Shown here: positions 517 to 6,013 of the stretch, one piece after another | Numbering within the stretch: the first letter of the stretch is position 1 | Layout of the letters: each line of letters starts with the position of its first letter | Assembly: GCA_029245795.1 (NCBI GenBank) | Contig: JAQWOP010000004.1 | Coordinates: 1-35,000 of the forward strand | Source of the DNA: Hyphomicrobiales bacterium | Lineage (GTDB): Bacteria; Pseudomonadota; Alphaproteobacteria; Rhizobiales; TMED25 | Reading direction: 5' to 3' | DNA: 35,000 bases | The notes under the pieces: model-generated | Database searches by the model: none | What the model was told of the DNA's origin: nothing | What the model saw: the letters and a program-made list of their open reading frames with translations, nothing else | Translations under genes and position numbers: made by a program

Positions 517-1260
517 ATGAACCAAAAAGAAAATTTATTAATAAAATTAGATAATATTGGTATTTTCAAATCTGATAAATGGTTAGTACGCGGTGTATCA
601 TTTGAAATTTCTAAAGGAGAAATTGTAACATTAATTGGCCCTAATGGCTCTGGTAAGACTACAACGGCTAAAATAGCTCTAAATATTCTTCAATCGAATG
701 AGGGGAAGATTGCTTTTTATGCAAAAAAGATAGCATATGTCCCTCAAAAAATTAATATCGATTGGACGCTTCCCATTCGAGTCATTGATTTTATGAACCT
801 AACCAATAAAATTAATGAAGGGCAGATATTAAAAGCCCTGGAATTAACGGGTGTTCAAGATCTTTTTCGTGCTGATATGAAAAATTTATCTGGGGGAGAA
901 TTGCAGCGTGTTTTATTAGCAAGAGCAATCGCGAGGAATCCTGATTTATTAATCCTTGATGAGCCTGCCCAGGGCGTTGACTTTAATGGAGAAATTGCCC
1001 TCTATAATATAATAAAAAAAATATCTGATGATTTAAATTGTGGGATATTATTGATATCTCATGATATACATTTCGTGATGTCAGCCACAGATCATGTTAT
1101 TTGTTTAAATGGGCATGTTTGTTGTTCTGGATCACCGAGTGCTGTCGCACAAAATCCTGCTTTTATTGAACTTTTTGGTGAACGAGCATCATCAACACTA
1201 TCAGTATACGAACATCATCATGATCATACCCATAACCATGACGGAAGTGTAGTAAAATGA
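517..1260 (+). CDS. znuC: Zinc ABC transporter ATP-binding protein ZnuC
   Basis: This 247-residue ABC ATPase powers Zn2+ import through ZnuB. Visible motifs are Walker A GPNGSGKT (residues 41-48), Q-loop region YVPQK, signature LSGGELQRV, Walker B LLILDEP followed by AQGVD, and the switch His in LLISHD. The last 20 residues hold a His cluster (EHHHDHTHNHDG), a zinc-binding type of tail. ATG start at 517 is preceded by AAAGAGA. The stop overlaps the znuB start by four bases (ATGA), implying translational coupling. Identity as the zinc system rather than Mn/Fe rests on the His-rich ZnuA, the Zur boxes and the neighbouring zur gene. Confidence 0.93.
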   Translation: MNQKENLLIKLDNIGIFKSDKWLVRGVSFEISKGEIVTLIGPNGSGKTTTAKIALNILQSNEGKIAFYAKKIAYVPQKINIDWTLPIRVIDFMNLTNKINEGQILKALELTGVQDLFRADMKNLSGGELQRVLLARAIARNPDLLILDEPAQGVDFNGEIALYNIIKKISDDLNCGILLISHDIHFVMSATDHVICLNGHVCCSGSPSAVAQNPAFIELFGERASSTLSVYEHHHDHTHNHDGSVVK

Positions 1261-2057
1261 TTTTAGATGATTTTTTTACTAGAGCACTAATTGCAGGTAT
1301 CGGAGTCGCTATTGTTGCAGGTCCTCTTGGCTGTCTTGTGATATGGAGAAGATTAGCTTATTTTGGAGATACACTTTCACACTCGGCACTCCTTGGGGTA
1401 GCAATAGCATATGTTTTTGATTTGAATATCTCGATAGCTGTTTTTCTTTTATCTGGAATCGTTGCCTTAATCCTTTTAGACCTCCAAAAGAGAACTAGAC
1501 TGCCAGGTGATGCATTATTAGGGTTGTTATCTCATGCAAGTCTTGCCATTGGATTAGTCTTTATTAGTTTTCTAAGTTTCATTCGATTTGATTTAATGGG
1601 TCTATTATTTGGTGATATTTTATCGGTCTCAAGAACCGATATTTATGCTATATGGGTCGGTGGGTTTGTTATATTAGGAATATTATATTTTATCTGGCAA
1701 TCAATATTTGCTGCAACTGTTAACCATGATCTTGCATCAGCAGAAGGTTTGAAGCCTCATATAGCTAATCTTATTTTTACTCTACTTCTCGCAGGTGTTA
1801 TAGCTATATCAATTAAAATGATTGGCGTTCTTCTGATAACAGGTTTACTACTTATTCCTGCTGCAATGGCAAGGAATTTATCTAATAATCCAAAACAGAT
1901 GGTTTTATTTTCAATATTGGGTGGGGTATTATCTGTAATTGTTGGTCTTTTTGCATCTCTAGAATTAAACTCCCCTTCCGGGCCATCTATTTTAGTTGCA
2001 GCATTTGTACTATTTATAATATCATTACTTATAATGAAAGTAAGAAACATATCATAA
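1257..2057 (+). CDS. znuB: Zinc ABC transporter permease ZnuB
   Basis: This 266-residue integral membrane protein of the ABC-3 (ZnuB/MntB) family forms the inner-membrane zinc channel. It is almost entirely hydrophobic, with about seven to eight predicted membrane segments. Family-typical stretches are GPLGCLVIWRRLAYFGDTLSHSALLGVA near the N-terminus and LLITGLLLIPAAMARNLSNNPKQM near residue 200. It starts inside the znuC stop codon (four-base overlap). The zur gene follows 16 bases after its stop, so znuC-znuB-zur is probably one transcript. Confidence 0.93.
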   Translation: MILDDFFTRALIAGIGVAIVAGPLGCLVIWRRLAYFGDTLSHSALLGVAIAYVFDLNISIAVFLLSGIVALILLDLQKRTRLPGDALLGLLSHASLAIGLVFISFLSFIRFDLMGLLFGDILSVSRTDIYAIWVGGFVILGILYFIWQSIFAATVNHDLASAEGLKPHIANLIFTLLLAGVIAISIKMIGVLLITGLLLIPAAMARNLSNNPKQMVLFSILGGVLSVIVGLFASLELNSPSGPSILVAAFVLFIISLLIMKVRNIS

Positions 2058-2073
2058 AAAGAAATTTAAAATA

Positions 2074-2481
2074 TTGAATATTATGCCATTAAAGAATGAA
2101 AATTTAACAAGAAACCAGAAGATTGTATTAGATCTTCTAAAGAATACTAAAGAACCCCTGGGAGCATATACTATTTTAACTAATATAGAGAAAAAAGGTA
2201 TTAAAGCTCCATTGCAAGTATACCGTGCTTTGGATAAATTAATTGAGAGCGGAAAAGTTCATAAGATAGAGAGTAAAAATGCTTATATCATTTGCAAAAA
2301 TTCAAATTGCAATTCTCTAAAATCAACCTCATTTTTAATATGTGAAAAATGTGATAGTGTATCTGAAATTAAGCGAAATAATTTGAAACAGGATTTATCA
2401 ATTCTCAGTGAGGAGTCTGGCTTTAACTACGCCAATCATAATTTAGAAATATATGGGTTATGTAAAAGTTGTGGAGATTAA
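2074..2481 (+). CDS. zur: Fur-family zinc uptake regulator Zur
   Basis: A 135-residue protein with a winged-helix N-terminal half (NQKIVLDLLKNTKEPLGAYTIL to YRALDKLIESGKVHKI) and a C-terminal metal/dimer domain. Paired cysteines CEKC and CKSC near the C-terminus form the structural zinc site typical of Fur/Zur proteins, and the NHNLEIYGLC stretch matches the family end. It is inferred to be the zinc-sensing repressor of znuA and znuCB, because it sits in that cluster and Zur-type boxes are present upstream. The start at 2074 is TTG; an in-frame ATG at 2083 is a real alternative. Purine-rich AAAAAGAAA at 2056-2063 fits the TTG better by spacing. Confidence 0.9.
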   Translation: MNIMPLKNENLTRNQKIVLDLLKNTKEPLGAYTILTNIEKKGIKAPLQVYRALDKLIESGKVHKIESKNAYIICKNSNCNSLKSTSFLICEKCDSVSEIKRNNLKQDLSILSEESGFNYANHNLEIYGLCKSCGD

Positions 2482-3030: not shown

Positions 3031-3058
3031 TTGACAATTAATATCTGCTACTTAAAGT
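3031..3058 (+). promoter_or_regulatory. Candidate sigma70-type promoter for the TPP riboswitch/thiamine operon
   Basis: TTGACA at 3031-3036 is a perfect -35 hexamer. A 16-base spacer leads to TAAAGT at 3053-3058, a 4/6 match to TATAAT. The predicted start near 3065 would put the first transcribed base just before the riboswitch P1 stem at 3066, which supports the call. The -10 element is weak. Confidence 0.5.
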
Positions 3059-3065
3059 TCTAAGA

Positions 3066-3138
3066 ATGACAGGGGTGCCTTTATGGCTGAGATAAACCCT
3101 TTTAACCTGAACCAGATAATGCTGGCGGAGGAAGTCAT
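3066..3138 (+). ncRNA. TPP (THI-box) riboswitch aptamer
   Basis: All conserved thi-box blocks are present in order: GGGGTGCC (3072-3079), GGCTGAGA (3085-3092), ACCC (3096-3099), ACCTGA (3105-3110), and ATAATGCTGGCG (3116-3127). The outer P1 stem is ATGAC (3066-3070) paired with GTCAT (3134-3138). The aptamer binds thiamine pyrophosphate and normally lowers expression of downstream thiamine genes. Here it precedes a thiM fragment and the thiYZX-type transporter, which fits a thiamine-precursor operon. Confidence 0.96.
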
Positions 3139-3186
3139 GATGAATATTCCTAGGTCATTCATGTCTTCTCCGTAAATATGAGAAAG
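3126..3186 (+). promoter_or_regulatory. Expression platform of the TPP riboswitch (mutually exclusive hairpins)
   Basis: CGGAG (3126-3130) pairs with CTCCG (3168-3172). The stem continues as AAG.CATGA (3132-3140) against TCATG.CTT (3159-3167), with one bulge and one mismatch. This hairpin uses the 3' strand of the aptamer, so it cannot coexist with P1. When P1 forms (TPP bound), CTTCTC at 3165-3170 is freed and can pair with GAGAAAG at 3180-3186, the ribosome site for the ATG at 3195. No U-tract follows, so control is probably translational, as in the E. coli thiM leader. Pairings were found by eye. Confidence 0.55.
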
Positions 3187-3194
3187 AATATTTA

Positions 3195-3341
3195 ATGATC
3201 AATAATCTCCAGAAAATGAGAGAAAAAAATCCTCTTGTGTATTCTATAAAAAACTATGTTGCAATGAATATTGCTGCAAATACTTTGCTTGCAGCTGGGG
3301 CCTCCCCGACTCATCATTTTCATAATCTTTGGAGAAAATGA
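3195..3341 (+). pseudogene. thiM: Truncated hydroxyethylthiazole kinase (thiM) remnant, 48 codons
   Basis: This is an open frame from ATG 3195 to TGA 3339-3341. Its first 38 residues read as the N-terminus of Thi[35 protein letters not shown] compares with the family pattern P-L-V-x-x-I-T-N-x-V-x-x-N-x-x-A-N-x-L-L-A-x-GASP. The protein then ends with ten unrelated residues. ThiM proteins are about 260-270 residues long, so over 80% is missing, including the catalytic and most substrate-binding residues. Other frames up to the thiY start show no further ThiM. It has its own ribosome site (GAGAAAG, eight bases upstream) under riboswitch control. It is either a deletion scar or a retained leader peptide. 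Confidence 0.8.
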
Positions 3342-3380: not shown

Positions 3381-4331
3381 ATGAAAAAGATTATATTTAT
3401 GGGATACGTATTCCTGTTATCAATAATGAATCCAATTAATGGCCATGCCGCTGATAAAGTATCACTTCTATTAGACTGGTTTATTAATCCTGACCATGGC
3501 CCAATAATTATTGCAGAAGAGAAAGGATACTTTTCTAAATATGATTTAGAGGTAGAGATTGTTGCCCCCGCCGACCCATCTATGCCCCCAAAATTGGTGG
3601 CAGCAGGAAAGGCTGACCTTGCCGTAAGCTATCAACCTCAACTTCATCTGCAAGTTAGTGAGGGACTTCCACTTATAAGAGTTGGTACATTAGTTGCAAC
3701 CCCGCTAAACTGCCTACTTGTTCTAAAAGATGGACCAATTTCTAGTCCAGCAGATCTTAAGGATAAGAAAGTTGGTTTTTCAGTTGCCGGAGTTGAAGAG
3801 GCACTATTAAAAGCAATTTTAGGGAAATATGGATTATCGATAGAAGATATTGAACTAATTAATGTAAACTTTTCATTATCTCCTGCTTTGATGTCAAAAC
3901 AGGTTGATGCTGTGATTGGTGCGTATAGAAATTTTGAACTAAACCAAATGGATATTGAAAATGTTCCAGGACATTGTTTCTACATTGAGGAAGAAGGCGT
4001 ACCTGCTTACGATGAATTAATCTATGTGGCAAATCCAAAGAAGATGGATCAGAGTGAAATAGCAAGATTTATTAAAGCCACTGAATTAGCAACTCAATTT
4101 ATAATTAATAATCCTGAAGAAAGTTGGAAAATTTTCTCATCAACTTCAAAGGAGTTACAAAATGAACTAAATAGAAGAGCTTGGTTTGATACAATACCAA
4201 GATTTGCTCTTAGACCAGCGGCATATGATGAGGCAAGATATGAAGAGTTTCAAAACTTTCTCTACAATTCAGGTCTTATTGAAAAGAAAGTTTCAATCAA
4301 GCAACTTACAAAAGATGTAACACGTAAATGA
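3381..4331 (+). CDS. thiY: THI5/NMT1-like ABC transporter substrate-binding protein (HMP/thiamine precursor uptake)
   Basis: A 316-residue periplasmic binding protein. It has a signal peptide ending near AA (residues 23-24) and then the NMT1/THI5-like fold: LDWFINPDHGPIIIAEEKGYF, LVAAGKADLAVSYQP, and a second-lobe stretch LKDKKVGFSVAG. These match the ThiY family that binds formylamino-HMP or HMP, the pyrimidine precursors of thiamine. ATG at 3381 follows a clear AAAAGGGG ribosome site. It is the first full-length gene after the TPP riboswitch and is followed by matching ATPase and permease genes. Substrate specificity is inferred from family and riboswitch context. Confidence 0.88.
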   Translation: MKKIIFMGYVFLLSIMNPINGHAADKVSLLLDWFINPDHGPIIIAEEKGYFSKYDLEVEIVAPADPSMPPKLVAAGKADLAVSYQPQLHLQVSEGLPLIRVGTLVATPLNCLLVLKDGPISSPADLKDKKVGFSVAGVEEALLKAILGKYGLSIEDIELINVNFSLSPALMSKQVDAVIGAYRNFELNQMDIENVPGHCFYIEEEGVPAYDELIYVANPKKMDQSEIARFIKATELATQFIINNPEESWKIFSSTSKELQNELNRRAWFDTIPRFALRPAAYDEARYEEFQNFLYNSGLIEKKVSIKQLTKDVTRK

Positions 4332-4411
4332 GTAATATCTATAGTAATGTAGTTTCAGATTTAATATCTGAACAAGATATTAAATTCTGGGAGATGGGTT
4401 TAAAGCCATGA
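4328..4411 (+). CDS. 27-residue ORF linking thiY and thiZ with four-base overlaps at both ends
   Basis: ATG at 4328 overlaps the thiY stop (ATGA), and its TGA at 4409-4411 overlaps the thiZ start (ATGA), so all three frames are joined without an untranslated base. The peptide is acidic/neutral and soluble (begins MSNIYSNVVSDLI, ends KFWEMGLKP) and matches nothing I recognise. It may serve only for translational coupling or be the remnant of a lost gene. A Shine-Dalgarno-like GGGAG for thiZ lies inside it. Coding status is uncertain. Confidence 0.45.
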   Translation: MSNIYSNVVSDLISEQDIKFWEMGLKP

Positions 4412-5133
4412 AATCAACTATTCCTTCTTTGTGTATAAATGGTCATGCATTATTCGAAGATAATATTTTATTCAATGCTAAAAATATGATCATAGGGTCA
4501 TCACAGTGGACATGTCTACTTGGGCCTTCAGGATCAGGGAAGTCAACTTTATTGAGACTAATTGCTGGCCTAGATACCCATGTTGTATTCAATGGAGACA
4601 TAAAGGCAAGCGATAATAATATGTTTAATAACCGAGTGGCTTATATGGCTCAAAGTGATTTACTTTTACCTTGGTTAAATGTAATTGATAACATCAAGGT
4701 TGGTTCTAAACTTCGCGGTGATAAGATAGATAATAATATATTAGATGTAATTATTGAAAATGTTGGTTTAGTTGATCATCGACAGAAATATCCTTCAGAA
4801 TTATCTGGCGGACAAAGGCAAAGGGTTGCGCTTGCCAGAACTTTAATGGAAAATAAGCCAATTATACTTCTGGATGAGCCCTTTTCTGCATTAGATGCAA
4901 AAACTAGATTAGAAATGCAGGACTTGGTAGTTATGCACTTGCAGGATAAAACCATATTGTTAGTGACCCATGATCCTAGTGAAGCAACTAGATTGTGTCA
5001 TAATATATATCTACTTAATGATAATGAAATATATTCAACTAAAAGTCTTCCCCCACCATTTCCTAAGAGTATTAATGACAGAGATGCATTTTCCTTACAA
5101 ACACAATTACTAGAAGAGATTAGGAGTACTTAA
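4408..5133 (+). CDS. thiZ: ABC transporter ATP-binding protein, ThiZ-type (HMP/thiamine precursor import)
   Basis: A 241-residue ABC ATPase of the nitrate/sulfonate/taurine (SsuB/TauB-like) class. It has Walker A GPSGSGKS (residues 39-46), Q-loop YMAQSDLLLPW, signature LSGGQRQRVALART, Walker B IILLDEP followed by FSALD, and H-loop LLVTHDPSEATRL. It energises uptake of the ligand brought by the THI5-like protein. Its start overlaps the stop of the small linker ORF, and its stop overlaps the permease start by one base (TAATG), so the operon is tightly coupled. The LLPW motif after the Q-loop is typical of this importer class. Confidence 0.88.
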   Translation: MKSTIPSLCINGHALFEDNILFNAKNMIIGSSQWTCLLGPSGSGKSTLLRLIAGLDTHVVFNGDIKASDNNMFNNRVAYMAQSDLLLPWLNVIDNIKVGSKLRGDKIDNNILDVIIENVGLVDHRQKYPSELSGGQRQRVALARTLMENKPIILLDEPFSALDAKTRLEMQDLVVMHLQDKTILLVTHDPSEATRLCHNIYLLNDNEIYSTKSLPPPFPKSINDRDAFSLQTQLLEEIRST

Positions 5134-5867
5134 TGAGGAGTTGGTATTATCCATTAGCTTCTATTTCATCAATCATATTAATTTGGCAAATGGGGGTATG
5201 GATTAGTTCAGCTCCATCATATATATTGCCAGCCCCTGTGGATGTCATATTATCTTTCATCGATAATTGGCAATTAATTTTAGAACATACTATAGTAACA
5301 GTCACAGAAGTTTTACTTGGACTATTTTTTGGTATCTCCCTTGGTTTTATAACTGCATTATATTTAGAAACATCTAAAAAAGCTGTACTTTTTTTGCGTC
5401 CTGTTTTGATATTTAGTCAAGCAATTCCGGTATTTGCACTAGCACCACTTTTAACACTTTGGTTGGGTTATGGGATAATTTCAAAAGTAGTGATGGCAAT
5501 ATTAATAATTTATTTTCCAGTCACATCATCTTTCTATGATGGACTGACAAAGACACCGAGATCATTTCTTGATCTCGCACAGACAATGGGAAGCACAAAG
5601 TCACGTATTCTTTACTATATTAAAATTCCAGCAGCAATACCAAGTCTCTTTACAGGAATAAGACTAGCAGCTGTCTATGCGCCCATTGGTGCCACAATTG
5701 GTGAGTGGGTCGGATCATCTCAGGGTCTGGGTTACCTAATGTTATTAGCAAATGGTAGGGTAAAAATAGATTTGATGTTTGCGAGCCTGTTAACATTAGG
5801 TTTTATATCAATTGGGCTATACGGGATTGTGTCATTTATATTAAACAAAATTTCTTCACATTATTAA
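5133..5867 (+). CDS. thiX: ABC transporter permease, ThiX-type (HMP/thiamine precursor import)
   Basis: A 244-residue inner-membrane permease of the BPD-transport (SsuC/TauC-like) family with about six membrane segments. The cytoplasmic coupling loop is present around residues 136-180 (SFYDGLTKTPRSFLDLAQTMG then IKIPAAIPSLFTGIRLAA). The C-terminal GEWVGSSQGLGYLM stretch is characteristic of the family. Starts one base inside the thiZ stop. With thiY and thiZ it forms a complete importer. No other thiamine gene follows within the next few kilobases. Confidence 0.88.
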   Translation: MRSWYYPLASISSIILIWQMGVWISSAPSYILPAPVDVILSFIDNWQLILEHTIVTVTEVLLGLFFGISLGFITALYLETSKKAVLFLRPVLIFSQAIPVFALAPLLTLWLGYGIISKVVMAILIIYFPVTSSFYDGLTKTPRSFLDLAQTMGSTKSRILYYIKIPAAIPSLFTGIRLAAVYAPIGATIGEWVGSSQGLGYLMLLANGRVKIDLMFASLLTLGFISIGLYGIVSFILNKISSHY

Positions 5868-5869
5868 AT

Positions 5870-5890
5870 AGCAAACTAAAATTAGTTGCT
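5870..5890 (+). terminator. Weak hairpin just after the thiX stop
   Basis: AGCAA-A-CTAA pairs with TTAGTTGCT across a very short loop, nine pairs with one bulged A, beginning three bases after the thiX stop. There is no following U-run, so it is not a canonical intrinsic terminator; it may stabilise the 3' end or mark the operon end. Low certainty. Confidence 0.25.
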
Positions 5891-6013
5891 CTAAAGAATA
5901 GAAAAATTATGTGAATATATATTTGTATTATTTTTAATAAGTAGAATTTATTGTTATGATTTTTTATACATAACAATAACTACTTTTAGATAACTGCAAT
6001 TAGTGAGGAACTA

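Follow-up and report, generated by a model that had tools for sequence, protein, structure and literature searches.

The thiamine locus described here is a genuine case of in-frame gene loss beneath a riboswitch, and a variant of a known arrangement. Within the window (the whole stretch of DNA that was analysed, 35,000 nucleotides long), alignment with relatives shows two in-frame deletions in this lineage, one of ~2.1 kb and one of ~590 bp, so that gene loss inside an operon has been caught with both joints still readable. The explanation that best accounts for the locus as a whole, to which we assign a probability of roughly 0.6, is that these deletions left the importer genes thiY, thiZ, and thiX under the control of thiamine pyrophosphate (TPP) by way of a translated stub, and that ThiYZX would supply the cell with thiamine or a phosphate of it. 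The locus illustrates how a vitamin riboswitch may go on working after the loss of its first gene.

The features of the locus are listed below; TMED25 (L032) is a relative from the same genus, and SI048 (L033) is close to TMED25 (thiY dS 0.18).

3031..3058, + strand: promoter-like site TTGACA-16-TAAAGT, just 5' of the riboswitch (consensus match 10/12)
3061..3150, + strand: TPP riboswitch aptamer (Rfam RF00059, 74.0 bits, model positions 1-105 of 105)
3151..3194, + strand: former thiM expression platform and ribosome-binding region (identity to TMED25)
3195..3341, + strand: thiM'-'thiD in-frame fusion scar ORF, 48 aa (codon comparison, profile matches)
3195-3308, + strand: thiM codons 1-38 within the fusion ORF
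3309-3332, + strand: last eight sense codons of thiD (THHFHNLW) within the fusion ORF
3333-3341, + strand: two readthrough codons and the stop of the fusion ORF
3381..4331, + strand: thiY, NMT1/THI5-type solute-binding protein (Pfam NMT1, E 2.5e-70)
4328..4411, + strand: tenA in-frame deletion scar, 27 aa, with ATGA overlaps with the thiY stop and the thiZ start (codon comparison)
4408..5133, + strand: thiZ, ABC ATPase (Pfam ABC_tran, E 3.1e-27; same place in L032 and L033)
5133..5867, + strand: thiX, permease (Pfam BPD_transp_1, E 3.1e-29; same place in L032 and L033)

The intact operon in relatives

At the same syntenic spot TMED25 carries, in order, a TPP riboswitch (3586-3675), thiM (3720-4499), thiE (4573-5133), thiD (5141-5956), thiY, thiZ, and thiX. 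Two ABC transporter genes, a Fur-like gene, and a SnoaL-like gene lie 5' of the riboswitch and AhpC-like and MOSC-like genes 3' of thiX, and the neighbours in the window are the same ones, without thiM, thiE, and thiD. The flanking genes were paired by eye, three of them also by codon alignment. One part of this flank, window 517-2481, is a zinc-uptake-like cluster syntenic with TMED25, made up of an ABC ATPase and an ABC-3 permease (Pfam) followed by a Fur-like regulator (by eye). The TMED25 genome is 98% complete with 6% contamination; two entries from the genus, G003 and G061 (the genome of L032), have identical coordinates and scores and were counted as one genome.

By arithmetic from the codon alignment, the ~2.1-kb deletion corresponds to 3834-5929 in TMED25 coordinates. 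The suspicion voiced in the initial annotation that further genes went with thiM is thus borne out by thiE and thiD, both present in TMED25 at this spot. Its proposal that the deletion brought the importer under an old thiM switch fails on the same comparison: in TMED25 thiYZX already follows thiM-thiE-thiD under the same riboswitch, so the importer was in the operon before the deletion. In SI048 a full tenA of 225 codons (1689-2366) stands in the place of the second scar, with ATGA overlaps with thiY and thiZ. Combining the order in L032, which has no tenA, with that in L033, whose contig starts inside thiD, the ancestral operon was most likely TPP riboswitch-thiM-thiE-thiD-thiY-tenA-thiZ-thiX.

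Two joints that keep the reading frame

The fusion ORF starts 44 bases 3' of the aptamer and stops 39 nt before thiY, a distance given earlier and confirmed from the coordinates. Pfam HK recognises residues 5-40 of its 48 amino acids (39.9 bits against a cut-off of 27, E 3.9e-10), though only through the first 36 of 247 profile positions. A second hit, of residues 2-39 to NCBIfam PRK09355 (E 2.1e-11), scores 43.7 bits against a whole-protein cut-off of 180, as is expected because the ORF is a fragment. These matches uphold the original identification of a thiM remnant, in which 38 of 259 codons are kept and the ThiM kinase domain is no longer whole. The ORF is not a thiM fragment that then stops, as had been supposed: codon comparison with TMED25 thiD identifies residues 39-46 as the ThiD C-terminus, which makes it a thiM'-'thiD fusion. 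The 27 bases at 3306-3332 differ from the TMED25 thiD end by 3 mismatches, a match found in 0 of 100 shuffles of the window, and the joint bases CC/CCG can be assigned to either gene. Nothing of thiD beyond its last eight sense codons remains at the locus, far short of a whole ThiD kinase domain, and since the thiD stop TGA here reads AGA, the frame runs two codons past the former end. The profile scores, together with the thiD and tenA tail matches, rule out a chance ORF.

The second scar, at 4328-4411, was absent from the initial annotation. Its 27 codons encode MSNIYSNVVSDLISEQDIKFWEMGLKP and are built from both ends of tenA: codons 1-19, less one codon, run in frame into the final nine sense codons, and both overlaps are retained. 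The ~590-bp deletion thus fell between codon 19 and this tail, and no whole TenA thiaminase II domain is left at the locus. The tail at 4382-4411 differs from the tenA end by 3 mismatches, and 0 of 100 shuffles matched. The loss of tenA in TMED25 is exact, with the ATGA of thiY being the ATGA of thiZ (L032:6948-6951). The two ends of the SI048 tenA carry similar 12-base words, ATGAGTGTAATC and ATGAGTGCGATC, alike at 10 of 12 positions, and recombination between ends of the SI048 type would therefore yield the TMED25 form; overlapping junctions may thus act as repeats for seamless gene loss.

A 10-codon mini-ORF, MREQMGLNSP, lies between thiY and thiZ in an Anderseniella MAG (L048:6921-6953), with ATGA overlaps at both ends. 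Its end, QMGLNSP, resembles the common tenA end FWQMGLTP, and it is probably another tenA deletion scar; it is the weaker evidence, because it was recognised by eye and missed by the tblastn remnant scan described below. In the thi operons of two other loci a second, partial tenA match stands beside the main tenA (L050:8323-8667 and L059:7583-7936).

Distribution of tenA and of similar scars

The sample of 190 thiY sources comprised 80 of 473 loci, 109 of 111 further matches (without G292 and G327), and the window. A full tenA match lies behind thiY in 78 of them, overlapping thiY in 58, thiZ in 64, and both in 52, with no thiZ seen in 8. Thirteen sources have thiZ next and no tenA, two of which (L052 and L155) share their junction and may be near-identical genomes. 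No thiZ, thiX, or tenA follows thiY in a further 97, many of which have thiX or thiZ elsewhere in the stretch, and thiY runs off the end in 2. The tblastn scan for remnants covered 162 of the 190 sources and looked for the ends of thiM, thiE, thiD, and tenA near thiY on the same strand where the gene was otherwise absent (E<5). It returned seven lines, four of them in the window (E 2.5e-17 to 0.21); the remaining three (E 1.7 to 3.8), from the separate loci L256, L227, and L100, are taken as chance. The scars are carried by one assembly only, a 24-contig draft. A search of viral_contigs, from which records near the window's genome may be excluded, gave no match to the junction pattern, and searches of literature listings turned up nothing relevant on in-frame operon scars.

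The riboswitch and expression of the importer

The aptamer is complete, scores 74.0 bits against a gathering score of 54.3, and is the sole TPP riboswitch found in the window's genome at E<=0.001. It is identical to that of TMED25 at 79 of 90 positions, and the segment that includes the start codon (3168-3197) at 28 of 30, so the earlier impression that riboswitch and start region are intact holds. Identity is 20/23 in the promoter region (3032-3054) and only 4/19 at 3146-3164. The promoter call at 3031..3058 is weak, because 18 such sites occur in the scanned region and shuffled sequences average 15.5 (sd 3.8).

One predicted fold of the platform (3145-3215) pairs the GAGAAAGA run with UCUUCUC, and another (3131-3215) leaves this run in a loop. 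The window folds are no more stable than those of shuffled sequences (z-scores -0.71 to -1.13), whereas two shorter folds of the TMED25 platform are (z -2.98 and -2.18). The folds, which are not significant in the window and differ from those of TMED25, with no conservation in detail, do not prove control of the start site. No plus-strand terminator-like site was found between the aptamer and the stub, which favours translational control.

Under the preferred explanation, high TPP would cause the riboswitch to close the old thiM start site. At low TPP, ribosomes would translate the 48-codon stub and so cover the transcript as far as 39 nt short of thiY, after which thiY, the tenA stub, and thiZ would be translated as a chain through their ATGA overlaps. 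With stub and overlap chain translated, the importer would stay TPP-controlled and non-polar. ThiYZX would then bring in intact thiamine or a phosphate, and ThiL would finish the cofactor.

Age of the stub and alternative explanations

Compared with TMED25, codons 1-38 of the stub carry 16 codon changes that are synonymous and 4 that are nonsynonymous (NG86 dN 0.058, dS 2.41), resembling thiY (dN 0.060, dS 1.57). Across six neighbouring genes dS is 1.11-1.57, so that synonymous sites are near saturation while the riboswitch and start region are conserved. All but one of the nonsynonymous changes alter the conserved ThiM motif, at H16, C17, and T19 (Y, S, and K in the window), residues kept by 27, 24, and 29 of 30 ThiM homologues, respectively. 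In a rough neutral simulation, with TMED25 thiM as the ancestor and mutation assumed to be AT-rich, a count of four or fewer nonsynonymous codons was compatible with as many as about 8 neutral substitutions (P 0.14 at 8, 0.035 at 10). With all 23 differences neutral, four or fewer occurred in 0 of 5000 runs, and 54% of copies acquired a stop. The differences are thus not all neutral: either most of the divergence had accumulated before the deletion happened, or constraint acts on the stub. Since a large share of the divergence may be older than the deletion, dN/dS is uninformative and was set aside as proof of peptide function.

Two alternatives share this history with the preferred explanation and differ from it in the role of the stub. 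The first, which the initial annotation had raised, is that the mini-ORF is selected as a regulatory leader (uORF) whose translation thiY would require, through reinitiation or shielding from Rho. The riboswitch, the start region, and the short ORF upstream of thiY together have the anatomy of a riboswitch-controlled translated leader, and the conservation of the first two argues for it. Precedents exist: PMC11260477 describes a riboswitch that controls a translated leader on which the next gene depends, and PMC5234074 reports control through Rho at the thiC TPP riboswitch of E. coli. The 16 to 4 ratio speaks in its favour too, but says little about the stub if most changes came before the deletion, and the changes at H16, C17, and T19 mean that conservation no longer extends to the ThiM sequence itself. 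There is also the 39-nt gap to thiY, which by eye carries its own purine-rich site and so may not need the stub. The leader is a possibility that we rate somewhat below even odds.

Alternatively, the stubs could be young, neutral fossils, recent scars left in frame by luck (about 1/3 for each) and destined to decay, with thiY expressed from its own site. The three changes in the ThiM motif are expected once ThiM function has gone, the thiD stop has already been lost, and the simulation leaves room for up to ~8 neutral substitutions. However, start and frame are kept in both scars, the tenA stub preserves both of its ATGA overlaps, a mini-ORF of 10 codons with both overlaps occupies the same place in L048, and the fully neutral simulation fails. 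We regard neutral decay as unlikely, if still a serious contender. Doubtful, in our estimation, is the more ambitious proposal that selection for non-polar loss in a streamlined lineage let only translation-keeping deletions survive, with the stubs serving as leader and linker and the importer having changed its cargo from a pyrimidine precursor to thiamine or a phosphate.

An assembly artefact, in which the thiM-thiE-thiD and tenA segments were lost in assembly, would fit a 24-contig draft that alone carries the scars, with intact genes such as the thiM of TMED25 present at the same spot in relatives. It would have to explain two separate in-frame joins, diverged sequence on both sides, a changed stop codon, and the failure to find thiE, thiD, or tenA elsewhere or thiM other than as the scar and one match below cut-off. 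Assembly error alone, the doubt attached to the original reading, is accordingly very improbable. A transplant of thiYZX under an orphan thiM riboswitch, suggested by its position directly behind the stub, has a negligible chance and is ruled out by synteny with L032, where the same riboswitch, gene order, and flanks enclose thiM-thiE-thiD, the end of which is still in the window.

Thiamine genes and the cargo of the importer

The window's genome (G000) spans 1.36 Mb in 24 contigs and is 95.5% complete. Family searches found no other thiM above cut-off, only a weak match on contig 16 (11.8 bits, with an internal stop), in line with the loss of thiazole salvage suggested initially. They gave no match for thiE, TPK, or thiC, none for thiD (PF08543, E<=0.01) or tenA (PF03070, E<=0.1), and none for the ThiB-type family (E<=0.01). 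Among genes for B1 uptake and phosphorylation, the inventory took in the ThiB-type family, thiY, TPK, and thiL. The gene thiL was found in G000 (L133, G000:C15:26592-27554) and in all 7 genomes searched for it, of which G003 and G061 look like one genome. In 14 control genomes the same searches gave a match for thiE in 11, thiD in 14, tenA in 7, TPK in 8, ThiB-type in 8, and thiC in 13, so TenA, TPK, and ThiB-type genes are not universal.

None of 12 genomes of the genus, some of them incomplete (53-99%), gave a match for TPK or thiC. ThiB-type proteins, taking TIGR01254 to be the model that covers ThiB, score above cut-off in 9 of the 12, and a TPP riboswitch directly precedes the ThiB-type gene in 8 of the 10 that bear one (L120-L127), the exceptions being G000 and G003. 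Strong thiY matches occur in G000 and G003 only, with three others at E 2.5e-4 to 9.0e-4. Judged by these searches, the genus has two alternative importers under TPP riboswitches, ThiB-type and thiYZX.

The binding protein, ABC ATPase, and permease of the ThiYXZ set are present in one operon of the window. Among solved structures ThiY best matches 3ix1, an N-formyl-aminopyrimidine-binding protein (E 7.7e-39). Of 175 conserved columns, six differ from the consensus in the ThiY of the window. All six also differ in TMED25 and SI048, five of them with an identical letter, and these two relatives have 8 and 9 departures in total. This pattern shows a protein under constraint and not decaying. No change at the conserved sites separates the window from its enzyme-keeping relatives, which gives no support for a change of cargo and no sign of a new pocket.

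A pyrimidine cargo would be unusable by the known route, because ThiD, ThiE, and TenA were not found in G000. By an argument drawn only from these enzymes not found, the cargo of ThiYZX is most likely intact thiamine or a phosphate. Two papers show both possibilities in use: a ThiY-type importer is named an 'HMP and/or B1' transporter in PMC10881298, and 'ThiXYZ2' is listed for B1 in PMC6593275. A marine survey classes thiY as a pyrimidine(/B1) transporter (PMC10881298), so the matter bears on counts of auxotrophy. The locus offers a clean test case, in which the sole detected TPP riboswitch precedes the importer and the pyrimidine-precursor enzymes were not found, and the cargo is the most valuable question that it raises.

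Comparison with known systems

The closest known systems are the alphaproteobacterial thiM-thiE-thiD-thiYZX operons (L032, L052, L061, L070, and L100; with tenA in L089, L093, and L105), which have the gene order and importer genes of the window and, in the first five, a TPP riboswitch before thiM. In the window, by contrast, the enzyme genes and tenA are reduced to in-frame stubs or gone. The ppe2 leader of Mycobacterium tuberculosis (PMC11260477) likewise places a short ORF (uORF) directly under a vitamin riboswitch and before the regulated gene, whereas the ORF in the window arose when a deletion fused two enzyme genes, and its translation and coupling to thiY are predicted. ThiY-type importers of pyrimidine precursors (3ix1; PMC10881298 and PMC6593275) unite the same protein families in one operon; the importer in the window differs in being kept in a genome where thiD, thiE, tenA, and an intact thiM were not found. 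The ThiB-type importer of other genus members is similarly TPP-controlled where thiM and thiE were not found, but it belongs to a different transporter family from the importer retained here.
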